Below, piece after piece: positions 21,133-27,877 of a DNA stretch of 33,430 bases (position 1 is the first letter of the stretch; each line of letters begins with the position of its first letter). Position numbers and translations under genes: made by a program. The notes beneath the pieces are model-generated. The model ran no database searches, was not told the origin of the DNA, and saw only the letters and a list, made by a program, of their open reading frames with translations. The DNA lies in contig JALCOX010000015.1 of the NCBI GenBank assembly GCA_022649925.1, forward strand, positions 1 to 33,430. The letters run 5' to 3'. This DNA is from Bifidobacteriaceae bacterium. Its GTDB lineage: Bacteria > Actinomycetota > Actinomycetes > Actinomycetales > Bifidobacteriaceae.

Positions 21133-23510
21133 ATGGGGGGAATATCAGTAACTCTGCGAAGTCGGGCGCATGCGCGCCGTCGCCGCATTGTGGGTTATGT
21201 TGTCATCGCAGCGGCTAGTCTTGCCGTTGTCATCACAGGTCTGTTTTTGGGATTCGCGCACGCGGCGGATTCAACCGACGTCTTGCAGGAGCCGCACCAC
21301 TCGGTTTCGGTCGAGAAGTCCGCCACTGCGGGCAAGGACCGCTATACCGTGACGTTGGCGGCCGACGGCAACAGCGCTACTCAGACAACTCCGCTCGACG
21401 TGGCCGTCGTTCTCGATACGGGATACGCGATGCCGAGCCTATCTACGCGGGTTCGTCCACCACCAAGATCGCCGCCGCCAAAACGGCCTTGACGAATCTG
21501 AGCTCACAACTGCTCGCCACAAACCCCAACAATGCCATCAATATGTCGCTCGTCACCTTCTCGAACTCGGCGCAGGTCGCTTCCGGCAGCACCACATCCG
21601 CCTTCACCGGCAACAAGGCAACCTTTGACAGGTGGGTCAATTCACTCACCGCACCCACGAGCCGGAACTCAACGCACACTTTCTGGGATACGGGACTGAC
21701 CATGGCCAACAGCCTCACGACGCGCTCGGGGGCGAAGAAGGTCGTGCTGTTTCTCAGTCAGGGCTACCCAACAACCATGTATACGCCCGGCGATCCCAGC
21801 AAAAACATCGATTACTTCAACCCCATTGTGTACGCAGGGTCCCAGGCGGCAGCCAAGACACTGATCAATAACAACTGGTCAATATATAACGTTGCCTTCT
21901 ACAACACCGTGCACCCCTGCGTGGCGCAGAAGCCCGCTAGAGATGACAACAACGGGTACGCCACCAAGGATTGGACCGCCTCCAACCAGTGCTACATCAG
22001 CACCACCACGACGTACTCAACCACGACAACTAATCACGGGCGCAACTCTCAGTTCTACAACTCCTCCATCTCCGGGTCCTTTCCCGTGGGGTCCTCGAGC
22101 GTGCCCTCCACGTGGATGAAGCCCTTCGACGCCTTCGTCAGCACGCAGCAGCAGTATGCACAGTCGAAGGCCTCCGTGGACATCGCCTCGTACTATCTCT
22201 CGGGTGACAATCTCGGAGATATTTTCACCTCCATCAGCCAGCAGCTCACCACCACGTACATCTATAGCCCGGTGACGGTGAAGCAGAAGCTCTCGCGCTA
22301 CGTGGCACCGGTCGATGTGACGGCAGTCGGTGGCGGTGTCAGTGCGAAAGTCGTCAACGCAGACGGCAGTGCTGCAACTTTCGGTGGAGCCACCATCGCG
22401 ACCGTGTACGATTCCGTCTCGCAGACGCTGACGGTGACGATTCCGCAGCTGGGCGTCGGGCAGAAGTTCACAGCGACTTACGACGTCATGCCCACGCAGG
22501 CGGCCTACGCGAAATACGTTGCGGACGGAGATTATCCCGACGTGGGCGACGACACCACCGGTTCCCTCTCCGAGGACAAGGATGGATTCTTCATTGACGA
22601 TTCCGCCGATACGACAGGCGTGGGTGCGAATCTCACCTATGCAGTGACCCGCTTGGGGATGAATCCGGAGTCGGTCACGGAGCAGACCACCTACAAGCGA
22701 CCCGTCATCCAAGTCACCCCGACGGCCACTATCCCGGTGGAGAAGCAGTGGGGACCCGATCCAATTGACACCGACCCCAGCAAACCCCTGTACGCGCTCG
22801 ATAACCTGCCAAACGTCCCGAATTCTGTGACGCTGCACCTCCTCAAAGACGGGGTGGACACGGGCAAGACTCTGACACTTGGCGCCTCCAACAGCTGGAA
22901 GGGTCACTTCGACGAGGTGGATTTGGGCCACGTCTACACGTTGAAAGAAGATGGCGTGCAGGATTCCGCGGGCAGCGCCCTCTACGAGCCGTGCTTCATC
23001 TCGCGAGACCTCGCTACGCCGGCTGCCTCAGAGTGCAGCGTGACCCAACACCTCCAGCAGAGCATCGACCTCACCTCCGCGATGACGACCAAAGGTTGGC
23101 TGGTCCGCAACATGGCGGTTCAGTCTCAGGTTTCGGTCGTCTTCAAGGTCAAGAACGGAACGTTCACCGGTGGTGTGACGAGCTACACGCAGCAGGTCTT
23201 TGCACTCGCCGGGAGGGGGACGCTCCAACAGGCAGCCGTCGACAGGGCCCTCGACCAGATCACAGCCGACAAGGGCTATGCGCTCTCAACTGGCACGTGG
23301 GACGTCACGCCCGACACCACTCGCGGCGGTCTCATCCAAGGGAATTCATACGTCTACACTTTCACCCTCAATCCGACCCCGGTCTCGCAGCTCCCACTCA
23401 CCGGCGGCACCGGGTCTGGATGGACAAGGATCGTGGGACCGCTTGCCGTGGCTGCTGTTTTTATCTTTGCCATTGCCGCAAAACTGAGGGATCGCGCTCG
23501 CAGAGCGTAA
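21133..23510 (+). pseudogene. LPLTG-anchored vWA surface protein with Cna-B-like repeat, frameshifted near 21415-21450
   Basis: N-terminal TM/signal segment and vWA beta1 strand TPLDVAVVLDT in one frame (ORF 21097..21492). Remaining vWA, Cna-B-like segment and LPLTGGTGSGW-TM-RDRARRA anchor in another (ORF 21489..23510). In-frame upstream reading of the second ORF continues as DAEPIYAGSSTTKIAAAKTALTNL. Confidence 0.72.
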
Positions 23511-23553
23511 TTGCGTGCGCACGTCTGCGACATTTCCTAAGCTAGGGGTGCAA

Positions 23554-23655
23554 GACACGGGGTGCCCGTGCCTCTGTGGCCCGCAGGGTCGGGGAGGTAC
23601 AGGGCTGAGAAACACCCGCCGAACCTGCTCTAGTCAGCACTAGCGAAGGGATGTC
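23554..23655 (+). ncRNA. TPP riboswitch (THI element)
   Basis: GACACGGGGTGCCC...GGGCTGAGAAACACCCGCCGAACCTGCTCTAGTCAGCACTAGCGAAGGGATGTC has the conserved GGGGUGCCC, GGCUGAGA, ACCC..GAACCUG and GCGAAGGGA blocks. Lies directly upstream of thiM. Confidence 0.96.
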
Positions 23656-23658
23656 ATT

Positions 23659-24576
23659 ATGACACTTCATACACAGTCCGCCGATTCAACGTCTGCAGCC
23701 GCAACCGAGAAACCGAACGCCTCCGATATCGGAGAGGCGCTTGTCACCTTGCGTGCCACCGCCCCACTCACGCAATGCATCACGAACGAGGTCACGACAA
23801 ACTTCGTCGCCAACGCCATCTTAGCCGTCGGAGGGTCCCCGGCCATGGCGGCGGACCCTGGTGAGGCCGACGATTTCGTCCGGCTCGCCTCGGCGTTGCT
23901 CATCAACGTCGGCACGCTTTCCACCGACAAGCGCGTCACCATTCCCCCCACGGCACGGATCGCCCACGAAACAGGTACTCCTTGGGTGCTTGATCCCGTG
24001 GCAGTCGGCGCGCTTCAGCCGCGCACGCGCATCGTCGAATTCATTCTGGATTTCCGCCCGACCGTCATCCGGGGCAACGCTTCGGAGATCATCGCGTTGG
24101 CGGGAGGCACCTCCGCCGGCAAGGGCGTCGACTCGGGTGACGATCCTGTTGCCGCCTTGCCGGCAGCTCTCGCGTTGGCGGCGCGGTATGGATCGGTCGT
24201 CGCGATTTCAGGGGCGACGGATCTCATCACCGACGGACGTATTGTGGCGCGGACGCCAGGCGGTTCTGTTCTGAGCACTCGCATCACGGGAGCGGGTTGC
24301 TCGCTCGGTGGCGTCACCGCCTCCTTTGCGGCGGCCGCGTCGTCCCCGCTGGTGGGTGCGCTCGCCGCCTCAATTGCTTACAACGTTGCCGCCGAGCGCG
24401 CGGAGAAGATATCACAGGGCCCTGGAACGTATCAGCCGCATTTCTTGGATGAGCTGTACTCGCTCAGCCCTGCAGATATTGGTGATCCTCGACGATTTTC
24501 CCTTGAGCCCGTTGATCCAGCCTCGGCGCAGGCTGCGGGTGTCTCGTTGGTGTCACAGAAGGGAGCAGCGGAATGA
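23659..24576 (+). CDS. thiM: Hydroxyethylthiazole kinase
   Basis: PLTQCITNEVTTNFVANAILAVGGSPAMAADPGEADDFVRLASALLINVGTL, WVLDPVAVGA, RGNASEIIALAG, GAGCSLGGVTASFAA. Confidence 0.97.
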   Translation: MTLHTQSADSTSAAATEKPNASDIGEALVTLRATAPLTQCITNEVTTNFVANAILAVGGSPAMAADPGEADDFVRLASALLINVGTLSTDKRVTIPPTARIAHETGTPWVLDPVAVGALQPRTRIVEFILDFRPTVIRGNASEIIALAGGTSAGKGVDSGDDPVAALPAALALAARYGSVVAISGATDLITDGRIVARTPGGSVLSTRITGAGCSLGGVTASFAAAASSPLVGALAASIAYNVAAERAEKISQGPGTYQPHFLDELYSLSPADIGDPRRFSLEPVDPASAQAAGVSLVSQKGAAE

Positions 24577-25361
24577 CCGCGAAATTGCCGCTGTGGCTTC
24601 GCAATCCACACGAGCGCGCGGAGGGAATCCGAGCGCATCTAGCAACGTATTTTGTGGTGGGGCCCCAGGATGTTGCGCCGCTCGGCCGTGACCTTGTGGA
24701 AACCATCCGCGAGGCCATCGCCGGAGGCGTGACCTTCCTCCAGCTGCGTGCTAAACCGGCCGGCGCGCGCGAGATTCTCGAGCTTTCGCGTGCCATAAAC
24801 CCCCTTCTTGCGGCGTTGCCCGAACGCGAGCGTCCGCTGTTCGTGATCGACGACCGCGTCGATGTCGCCGCCGCCGCTCAGCGTGAGGGACTGCTCGTCG
24901 ACGGGGTCCATGTGGGGCAGAGCGATCTGCCGGTGGAGCATGCCGCTCAGTTGCTCGCGCCCGGCTCGGTGATCGGACTGTCTGCCGCAACCGATGAAAC
25001 AGTGCGCGCGCTCGATGCACAACAGGCCGATTACCTCGGCGTGGGAGCGTATCACGACACGATTTCCAAGGCGGATGCCGGCGGTGGCTTGGGTGCCGAC
25101 CGGTTCGCCGAGCTGACGAGGATAGCGGTGCGCCCAGTTGTAGCGATCGGAGGCATCACGCCTGCCGACGCGGAATCCGTGGCTCGGGCAGGCGGCGCGG
25201 GCCTGTGCGTGATCTCGGATATTGCGCGGGCCGCCGACGTGCGTGCCGCTGCCGCGACCCTGGCTACCGCGTGGAAGAGAGCGGTTGCTGCTACTGGTAC
25301 TGGCGCGAAATCTGGCGCGGAGTCAGACGCGAAATCTAGCAAGGAAGCGAGTGCGCGATGA
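24573..25361 (+). CDS. thiE: Thiamine-phosphate synthase
   Basis: ATYFVVGPQDV, ETIREAIAGGVTFLQLRAKPAG, LFVIDDRVDVAAA, DGVHVGQSDLP, YLGVGAYHDTISKADAGGGLG, PVVAIGGITPADA. Confidence 0.95.
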   Translation: MTAKLPLWLRNPHERAEGIRAHLATYFVVGPQDVAPLGRDLVETIREAIAGGVTFLQLRAKPAGAREILELSRAINPLLAALPERERPLFVIDDRVDVAAAAQREGLLVDGVHVGQSDLPVEHAAQLLAPGSVIGLSAATDETVRALDAQQADYLGVGAYHDTISKADAGGGLGADRFAELTRIAVRPVVAIGGITPADAESVARAGGAGLCVISDIARAADVRAAAATLATAWKRAVAATGTGAKSGAESDAKSSKEASAR

Positions 25362-26269
25362 ATGCGAACGCGCGAGGTAGCCGTACTTCCGGGAAACGCG
25401 CTTCCGGGAAACGTGAGCGTGGCAGCCGTGCGCGAGTCCTCAGCATTGCCGGTACGGATCCGAGCGGCGGGGCCGGACTGATGGCAGATCTGCGCACAAT
25501 GGCCGCGTTGGGCGCCTACGGAATGGGCGTGGTGACCAACGCGGTGGCGCAGAATACGCAGGGCGTGCGCGCTGTGCTGGCCGTGCCGTCGAGCTCGGTT
25601 CGCGCCCAGCTCGAGGCGGTGAGCGACGACGTTACGATTGACGGCGTCAAGATCGGCATGCTCGGCGGCGTCGAAACCATAGAAACCGTGCGCGCATGGC
25701 TGGAAGCGTTCGGTTCACGGAGGCCCCCGGTCGTTCTCGACCCGGTGATGATCTCGACGTCGGGCACGCGACTCCTCGACGAGGATGCGGTGTTCGCGCT
25801 GCACAAGTTACTCTGCAGCGGCCTCATAGACGTCGTGACACCCAATATCCCCGAGCTCGCCGCTCTGTGTGAGTGGGCGGTGCCGAAGGATTGGGAAGGT
25901 GTGCGCGAGCTCGCGATTGAGTTCGCAGGGGAGTCGGGTGCGAAAGTGTACGCGAAGTCGGGGCATCTAGAGAGCTCCGATGACCGTACGGACGCGCTGG
26001 TGTCATGGGATCAAGCGAAGAGCGAAGCCCGGATCGACGAATTTGCTGGCACTTTGGTGGAGACACAGAATACGCATGGGACCGGCTGCACGCTGTCGAG
26101 CGCATTGGCGACTTTTGCGGCACAGGGGAGCGGATGGGTCAAGGCTGCCCGCCGAGCGAAATCCTTCATGAACGGCGCCATCGCACACGCAGACGAACTC
26201 CACGTCGGTCACGGACACGGCCCGATCGACCAGCTGTGGAACACGACTTATGACGTAGGGAATGAATGA
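25358..26269 (+). CDS. thiD: Hydroxymethylpyrimidine/phosphomethylpyrimidine kinase
   Basis: VLSIAGTDPSGGAGLMADLRTMAALGAYGMGVVTNAVAQNTQGV, VLDPVMISTSGTRLLD, TPNIPELAAL, THGTGCTLSSALATFA. Confidence 0.96.
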   Translation: MNANARGSRTSGKRASGKRERGSRARVLSIAGTDPSGGAGLMADLRTMAALGAYGMGVVTNAVAQNTQGVRAVLAVPSSSVRAQLEAVSDDVTIDGVKIGMLGGVETIETVRAWLEAFGSRRPPVVLDPVMISTSGTRLLDEDAVFALHKLLCSGLIDVVTPNIPELAALCEWAVPKDWEGVRELAIEFAGESGAKVYAKSGHLESSDDRTDALVSWDQAKSEARIDEFAGTLVETQNTHGTGCTLSSALATFAAQGSGWVKAARRAKSFMNGAIAHADELHVGHGHGPIDQLWNTTYDVGNE

Positions 26270-26272
26270 TAA

Positions 26273-27877
26273 ATGACGATGGAAATGAGTGATACGAGCG
26301 AAAGAGGGCACATGAACGCTTCTCTCCATGCCCTAGAGGTTGTCGCCGAGAAATCCTCGGGTGCACCGAGTCGTGCGCGAGTACTGTCGATTGAAGGCTC
26401 CGACCCGATCGGTGGGGCGGGCACCATGGCGGATATGAAGGTTTTCACCGCGCACGGAGTCTATGGCTACGCGGTGATGACCAGTGTGCTGGCGCAGAAC
26501 ACGCAGGGCGTCACCGACATTGTGAACATGGAACCGGGGTTCATTCGGGCTCAGCTCGATGCTGTGAGTGACGATTCTGACATCGATTCCATGAAGATTG
26601 GAATGCTCGGAACCGTTGAAATCATTGATGTCGTGCGCGAGTGGCTCTCGGGAGTCCTGGAGCGTGCGGCCGCGGGTGAGATTGCGAAGCCGTTCGTCGT
26701 CATCGATCCCGTGATGTACGCGAAGTCCTCGGATGCGCTGCTGACCCCCGAGGCCGAGCAGGCGCTGAGGAGCGTGTTGCCGCTCGCGGACGTGATCACG
26801 CCGAACATCCCTGAGCTTGCAGCCCTGACAGATTCGCAGCCCGCGAGTTCGTGGGACGGCATGGTGGACCAGGCCCGCGACTTGGCCGCCGCGATGAATA
26901 TCGGCGTCTATGCGAAGTCGGGAATGTTGACGATGAAAGGTGCGTCCGACGCTTCGGACGTGTTGGTCATGCCGGGGGATACCGGCGACGAACCGCTCGC
27001 TCTCCGCATCCCTGGCCACGCCATTTCGACGAGCAACGTCCACGGAACTGGCGACTCCCTCTCGAGCTCCCTCGCGGCGCTGCGACCTCAAAAATCTTCG
27101 TGGAGTGCGACTGCGCTCGCGGCCAAGGAGTGGATGACGGGTGCGATCGCCGCCGCCGATCAATTGCACGTCGGCAAGGGCCACGGGCCCATTGATTTCA
27201 CCTGGAAGCATGCTCCTACGGGACTGAGTTTTTCCAGCGACTACTGGAATCGGGTGGAGCCTGTGCGTGAGCGCATTGCTTCCATGCCCTTCATCGAGGC
27301 CCTCCTCGATGGCAGTCTGCCGCGCGATGCGTTCAACGATTATCTGCATCAGGATGACCTCTACCTCAGCGACTACACCTCCCTACTGGCACTGGCATCC
27401 TCGCGTGCCGACACCATTCACGAGCGTGTATTTTTCGCCGGCGCCGCCAGAGGCTCCGTGGAGTCGGAGCTGGGGCTGCATCGTTCGTGGTTCCTCGACA
27501 ACGGGTACTCGCCGGAGCGTGCGCGCATGTCCGAGGTGACGGCCGCCTACATCGGCCACGAGCACCGCGTCGCAGACCAGGGGCGCTATTCCACCTTGGC
27601 TGCCGTGGTGATGCCCTGCTTCTGGCTGTATGCCGAAGTTGGGAGAACAATTGCCTCGCGCGCTGTTTCACTTGGGCTTGACCTCGATACGCATCCGTAT
27701 GGCTCGTGGATTCACGCCTATGCGGACGACTCGTTCAACTCGGCCGTGGCGCAGGAAGTGGCGATCTGCAATCGGGTTGCTGCGGCCGCTTCCATTGATG
27801 AATACAACGAAATGATGGACGCTGCGTTGATTTCTTCGGAGCACGAGTACCGGTTCTTTGCGCAGGCGGGGGAGTAG
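26273..27877 (+). CDS. ThiD-like kinase fused to C-terminal TenA/thiaminase-II domain
   Basis: N-terminal half VLSIEGSDPIGGAGTMADMKVF...VHGTGDSLSSSLAAL. C-terminal half LHQDDLYLSDYTSLLALASSRAD, VVMPCFWLYAEVGR, EHEYRFFAQAG matches TenA with Cys and Glu retained. Start may be 26273 or 26312. Confidence 0.92.
   Translation: MTMEMSDTSERGHMNASLHALEVVAEKSSGAPSRARVLSIEGSDPIGGAGTMADMKVFTAHGVYGYAVMTSVLAQNTQGVTDIVNMEPGFIRAQLDAVSDDSDIDSMKIGMLGTVEIIDVVREWLSGVLERAAAGEIAKPFVVIDPVMYAKSSDALLTPEAEQALRSVLPLADVITPNIPELAALTDSQPASSWDGMVDQARDLAAAMNIGVYAKSGMLTMKGASDASDVLVMPGDTGDEPLALRIPGHAISTSNVHGTGDSLSSSLAALRPQKSSWSATALAAKEWMTGAIAAADQLHVGKGHGPIDFTWKHAPTGLSFSSDYWNRVEPVRERIASMPFIEALLDGSLPRDAFNDYLHQDDLYLSDYTSLLALASSRADTIHERVFFAGAARGSVESELGLHRSWFLDNGYSPERARMSEVTAAYIGHEHRVADQGRYSTLAAVVMPCFWLYAEVGRTIASRAVSLGLDLDTHPYGSWIHAYADDSFNSAVAQEVAICNRVAAAASIDEYNEMMDAALISSEHEYRFFAQAGE

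Follow-up and report, generated by a model that had tools for sequence, protein, structure and literature searches.

Why should a single thiamin operon hold two ThiD-type kinases in tandem, one with the catalytic Cys and the other, fused to a TenA domain, with Asp in its place? We addressed this question in the window, by which we mean the whole stretch of 33,430 nucleotides that was analysed, on contig C15 of the Bifidobacteriaceae genome G000 (1.70 Mb, 77% complete). The nearest named records are the MAGs UW_DM_BIF1_1 and UW_DM_BIF2_1, followed by Bifidobacterium thermophilum, B. boum, B. apri, B. mongoliense and Pseudoscardovia. The two kinase genes were confirmed as adjacent open reading frames, at 25358-26269 and 26273-27877, as the initial annotation had placed them. 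They belong to an operon with the order TPP riboswitch, thiM, thiE, thiD and thiD/tenA, in which thiM overlaps thiE, and thiE overlaps thiD, by 4 bases each, and 3 bases separate thiD from the fusion gene. The features of the locus are as follows.

23548..23668, + strand: TPP riboswitch aptamer RF00059 heading the operon (cmscan 55.8 bits, gathering 54.3); the thiM start lies inside its 3' end
23659..24576, + strand: thiM, hydroxyethylthiazole kinase (PF02110 251.7 bits; canonical GAGC motif)
24573..25361, + strand: thiE, thiamin phosphate synthase (PF02581 154.1 bits; TIGR00693 151.6, cut-off 145.1)
25358..26269, + strand: thiD, Cys-type HMP/HMP-P kinase, 303 aa (TIGR00097 237.8 bits, cut-off 204.95; Phos_pyr_kin 237.6 bits)
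26087..26089, + strand: Cys244 codon of the separate ThiD, the comparison site for Asp261 of the fusion
26273..27877, + strand: thiD-tenA fusion, Asp-type kinase plus thiaminase II, 534 aa (TIGR00097 207.7 bits, a narrow pass of the cut-off of 204.95; PF03070 92.5 bits)
26375..27202, + strand: Asp-type ThiD kinase domain of the fusion, about residues 35-310 (Phos_pyr_kin 208.5 bits; alignment; structure model)
26393..26395, + strand: Glu41 codon of the fusion, Salmonella position 10 (Ala in 63 of 64 Cys-type ThiDs, Ser in the remaining one)
27053..27055, + strand: Asp261 codon GAC, at the site of the ThiD catalytic Cys213 (Salmonella numbering)
27230..27868, + strand: TenA thiaminase II domain of the fusion, about residues 320-532 (Asp361, Tyr426, Cys449, Glu525)

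A large surface-protein-like ORF with an LPLTG-type sorting motif and a hydrophobic tail lies 5' of the operon (21489-23510); its TTG start is uncertain.

The motifs reported in the initial annotation were all recovered. The separate ThiD carries GTDPSGGAG and NTHGTGCTLSSA (NTHGTGC), which includes Cys244, and the fused kinase carries GSDPIGGAG and NVHGTGDSLSSS (NVHGTGD), in which Asp261 replaces the Cys. In the TenA half, MPCFWLY (Cys449) and EHEYRFF (Glu525) align with the catalytic Cys and Glu of Bacillus subtilis TenA, as do Asp361 and Tyr426 with the other catalytic residues of that enzyme. The TENA_THI-4 model PF03070 scored 92.5 bits against a threshold of 22, and the TIGR04306 equivalog scored 112.6 bits, below its cut-off of 130. 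An AlphaFold model of the fusion (pLDDT 81.8, pTM 0.55) confirmed both folds, with unreliable placement of the domains relative to each other: the kinase domain is ribokinase-like (TM 0.86 to 1jxi) and the TenA domain resembles 1tyh (TM 0.87).

We then asked how usual Asp is at this site. The possibility that it is simply the norm in ThiD-TenA fusions, which had been set as a test of the initial proposal, proved false outside the window's clade. Seven of seven fusions sampled elsewhere in the order, outside this family, had Cys, as did other bifidobacterial fusions, for example those of genomes G119, G165 and G166. Among 397 sampled Actinomycetota, a DNA pattern for the Cys motif matched 101 genomes and one for the Asp motif matched 22, where the window's gene was the sole ThiD. 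Within the Bifidobacteriaceae, the Asp fusion was found in about 25 of 189 genomes, some of which are MAGs (G000-G002, G008, G023, G034, G205, G070, G076, G161, G162, G111, G141-145 and G147-154). Every Asp fusion that was read contains GSDPIGGAG or GTDPIGGAG together with NVHG[TA]GD. The Asp was present in every one of the 19 clade members whose residues were aligned and compared, and direct reads showed it in other Asp fusions, indicating that Asp261 is neither chance nor a sequencing error. The ThiD-TenA architecture is already known, and the Asp variant is not its norm; none of the papers found in a literature search describes an Asp ThiD or a bifidobacterial ThiD-TenA.

A quick tree placed the Asp fusions in a single clade (support 100) inside the actinobacterial ThiD-TenA group, on a long stem of about 1.0 changes per site. 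Nineteen Asp-fusion kinases were compared with 64 Cys ThiDs, the latter set being defined by Cys213 itself. Changes fixed in the clade (Salmonella numbering) are A10E, S15I, I20T, Q21M, M35Y, T208V and C213D, plus one at position 24. H261 has become Phe in 18 of the 19 and Val in one, and H179, invariant in the 64 Cys ThiDs, is lost and mostly replaced by Ala or Met. Asp261 is one of several clade-specific changes around the active site, the others having been overlooked in the initial annotation. Positions G11, A18, D23, Q44, M80 and V107 are unchanged in 19/19 Asp-fusion kinases; these (with Q/E at 44) are HMP contacts in the Salmonella ThiD structure. E142, the GTG anion hole and K176 are also kept, apart from Ala at T211 in one member and Thr at K176 in one. 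The Asp-fusion kinase is under purifying selection: the dN/dS ratio of the kinase domain was about 0.07-0.2, with dS partly saturated. Several Bifidobacterium Asp fusions (L040-L052) contain long, variable, low-complexity insertions in the kinase domain, near residues 186-245 of the window's fusion protein.

Asp at the catalytic site is also found in the Lactobacillales. It occurs in the best-scoring Enterococcaceae matches that were read, and in one Bifidobacteriaceae genome, G033, the sole ThiD is an unfused Asp type within a Lactobacillus-type thiM-thiD-thiE-tenA cluster. The nearest tree relative of this ThiD is on a Lactobacillus plasmid. Near-identical transposase-like ORFs flank the cluster on both sides (L173:5262-8202; G033:C1, about 1545261-1548201) and, together with its Lactobacillus-type organisation, suggest probable horizontal transfer. 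In G219 the Asp thiD adjoins thiM and thiE. The second ThiD-like protein of both G219 and G232 belongs to the pyridoxal-kinase type and reads TMDP or TMNP as well as HGAGC. The Lactobacillales Asp ThiDs retain A10, Q21, T208, H179 and H261, with one row deviating at 21 and 208. A single origin of both Asp groups was rejected by an AU test (p = 5e-6), and the Lactobacillales proteins are an independent Cys-to-Asp lineage. Since Asp also occurs in these ThiDs, the catalytic Cys213, which 19/19 fusion kinases lack, is not strictly ThiD-defining. The initial annotation had taken the Asp as such to indicate a new specificity. This part of the proposal was not supported, as the Lactobacillales Asp ThiDs can be the only ThiD in ordinary thiM/thiE/thiD salvage operons; Asp by itself cannot mark loss of function, and we rejected it as a diagnostic of new function.

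The ThiM beside the Lactobacillales Asp ThiDs (L173:5262-6047 and L203:16-864) has GTGD, as opposed to GAGC in the window's ThiM, so the Cys/Asp exchange seems to have occurred in this sister kinase too. The C198D variant of B. subtilis ThiM is reportedly more active than the wild type; the paper on Staphylococcus aureus ThiM contains no text on the catalytic Cys of ThiM.

Next, we examined which genes accompany the Asp fusion. A Cys-type ThiD is also present in 24 of the 25 Asp-fusion genomes. When 17 of these were searched for ThiE, 16 had it, and all 16 had a Cys ThiD. MAG G142 is the exception, with neither a Cys ThiD nor thiE, and an Asp fusion as the only ThiD alongside thiE was not found among the Asp-fusion genomes tested. 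At the G142 locus (L174:10776-14350), a Mutator-type transposase gene lies directly upstream of the Asp fusion, and thiE, thiM and thiD are missing there. The eight Cys-fusion genomes examined have one canonical ThiD each, and one of them (G062) has a divergent ThiD-like protein in addition. In the window's genus and Pseudoscardovia the Cys partner is the sister of the Asp fusion kinase (support 84, not strong), as would be expected from a duplication; in Bifidobacterium the tree assigns the partner to a different ThiD lineage, so the Cys partner may have been exchanged. As the Asp fusions form one clade, this co-occurrence should be counted as roughly one or two evolutionary events and not as 25 separate ones. 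In the B. thermophilum group the Cys thiD lies elsewhere than the fusion and adjoins thiC in several genomes; in B. thermophilum itself the fusion is away from thiM/thiE/thiD, under its own TPP riboswitch (L061:7860-7949). Genus g1 is without ThiC, so HMP there must come from salvage or uptake. A link of the fusion to missing de novo HMP or PLP synthesis was considered and rejected, because the presence of ThiC and PdxS does not track the fusion across genomes.

The TenA half is not always preserved. In Pseudoscardovia suis and the related MAG SUG1663 (L073:8805-10844 and L072:5975-8209), TenA is degenerate, with the catalytic Cys changed to His and the N-terminal part missing, and the Asp kinase is intact. 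This indicates that the kinase is not tied to TenA. Channelling of degraded thiamine products from TenA, one of the roles suggested initially, is thereby excluded as the whole reason for the fused kinase.

On these grounds we infer a substrate preference, a role for the Asp and a division of labour between the two kinases. We consider it somewhat probable that the fusion is a salvage HMP kinase plus thiaminase II acting mainly from HMP to HMP-P, with the step from HMP-P to HMP-PP carried out by the Cys ThiD. The TenA domain would release the pyrimidine moiety, HMP, from thiamin or from products of its degradation; the ThiD-fold domain would phosphorylate HMP with Asp261 as general base, and the separate Cys ThiD would supply HMP-PP to ThiE. 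Remodelling after duplication would have turned the fused kinase into a salvage HMP kinase that is no longer the cell's only HMP-P kinase. Asp as general base is the norm at this site in ribokinase-fold kinases, so the exchange need not impair chemistry. Purifying selection and retention of the kinase where TenA has decayed suggest that the fused domain is probably an active ThiD-type kinase, yet not a substitute for the Cys ThiD. The simplest account would be a salvage kinase for HMP that acts on HMP-P weakly or not at all. Natural ThiDs differ in how well they carry out the second step: that of S. aureus forms no more than traces of HMP-PP, and a less active second step is cited for Plasmodium falciparum (PMC2766623). 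A weak second step is therefore not special to the Asp-fusion clade. A bolder version, that the Asp kinase has abandoned HMP-P chemistry entirely, acts on HMP only or on another thiamin-breakdown pyrimidine and feeds the separate Cys ThiD, is offered tentatively as the less probable case. Of the functions named in the initial annotation, HMP versus HMP-P specificity remains the best. Its broader proposal, that the paired kinases have diverged in function, is supported by the separate long-stemmed clade, the fixed active-site changes and the near-constant Cys ThiD partner (24/25).

A fully bifunctional enzyme would likewise be compatible with the kept HMP contacts. The fusion might then be a redundant ThiD in which Cys-to-Asp is neutral and both HMP-P and HMP-PP are made, the second copy serving dosage or separate regulation. 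We regard this as rather unlikely, although the Lactobacillales Asp ThiDs act as sole ThiD in thiM-thiE-thiD operons, the only ThiD of G033 is of this type and adjoins thiM, thiE and tenA, and the B. thermophilum fusion has a riboswitch of its own. Against it, A10, Q21, T208, H179 and H261 are kept in the Lactobacillales but altered in the fusion clade, and the fusion was never the only ThiD with thiE among the genomes tested. The changes fixed in the clade might instead reflect a different substrate, such as an amino- or formylamino-pyrimidine breakdown product or an HMP analogue, with HMP not the main one. Several of them are grouped in the substrate loop (segment 10-24) and around 179 and 208-213, where Cys ThiDs vary little or not at all. 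Such a switch seems improbable, however, as all direct HMP contacts considered are unchanged and HMP is the expected TenA product.

Two further readings are very improbable. A non-catalytic kinase domain, acting as a scaffold or sensor for TenA, would accord with the loss of H179 and the replaced Cys, but the GTG anion hole and E142 are kept, K176 is present in all but one member, purifying selection is strong, and the kinase persists where TenA has decayed. The pyridoxal kinase suggested in the initial annotation draws on Asp being the usual base in PdxK/PdxY and on the finding of neither a dedicated pyridoxal kinase nor PdxS in G000 (77% complete). The sister genome G001, however, encodes a pyridoxamine-kinase-family protein (236 bits, cut-off 231), Pseudoscardovia species with PdxS retain the fusion, and the HMP-type AQNT is retained where PLK-type relatives have TMDP or TMNP. 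The PdxK/PdxY models TIGR00687, PRK05756 and PRK08176 scored 31, 38 and 41 bits, far under their cut-offs of 144.5, 292 and 342, and the Bacillus-type PdxK PRK12412 scored 103.5 bits against 385, the fusion keeping AQNT without the Met at that site. Given the dedicated protein in G001, the AQNT and the low scores, we rejected this candidate.

If the bolder version of the salvage HMP kinase holds, bifidobacteria would possess a dedicated first-step salvage kinase, and the two ThiD steps would be split naturally between paralogues of one operon. In a normal ThiD, one active site serves two phosphorylations that differ chemically, and the features that distinguish them are ill-defined. A matched kinase pair in a single operon, together with two independent Cys-to-Asp lineages of which only one has further active-site changes, allows direct tests of which residues determine HMP versus HMP-P activity and of whether a Cys or an Asp base matters. 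For about 25 bifidobacterial species, annotation of the Asp fusion as a bifunctional HMP/HMP-P kinase may be incorrect.

Among known systems, the best NCBIfam match of the fusion is the actinobacterial ThiD-TenA fusion (NF011301 / PRK14713), which has the same domain order, length and folds; the score for NF011301, 494.6 bits, is narrowly below the curated cut-off of 512. Unlike that family, the window's protein has Asp for Cys, more active-site changes and a second ThiD alongside. Yeast THI20 (3rm5), a trifunctional HMP/HMP-P kinase and thiaminase II, shares the ThiD-TenA order and is the top Foldseek match (E 3.6e-26), with an rmsd of 21.5 to the model (pTM 0.55), so that relative domain placement is not comparable. 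Compared with Salmonella ThiD (1jxh/1jxi), the kinase domain has a TM-score of 0.86, about 40% identity and the same HMP contacts, but differs in Cys213 to Asp, A10E, S15I, Q21M, T208V and the loss of H179. The Asp ThiD of Enterococcaceae and Lactobacillaceae likewise has Asp at the catalytic Cys site, but it is of separate origin, unfused, without the other diagnostic changes and the operon's sole ThiD where checked. The ThiD-family pyridoxal kinase of Bacillus and Staphylococcus (2i5b, 4c5j) shares the fold; the PLK-type relatives read have TMDP/TMNP for AQNT and keep the Cys, and the window's protein is far under that model's cut-off. ThiD2 (Thamm et al. 2017) is reportedly a monofunctional HMP-P kinase. 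Finally, B. subtilis TenA (1to9, 1yaf) matches the C-terminal domain at a TM-score of 0.84-0.88 and shares its four catalytic residues (Asp, Tyr, Cys and Glu), but it stands alone, whereas the window's TenA is fused.
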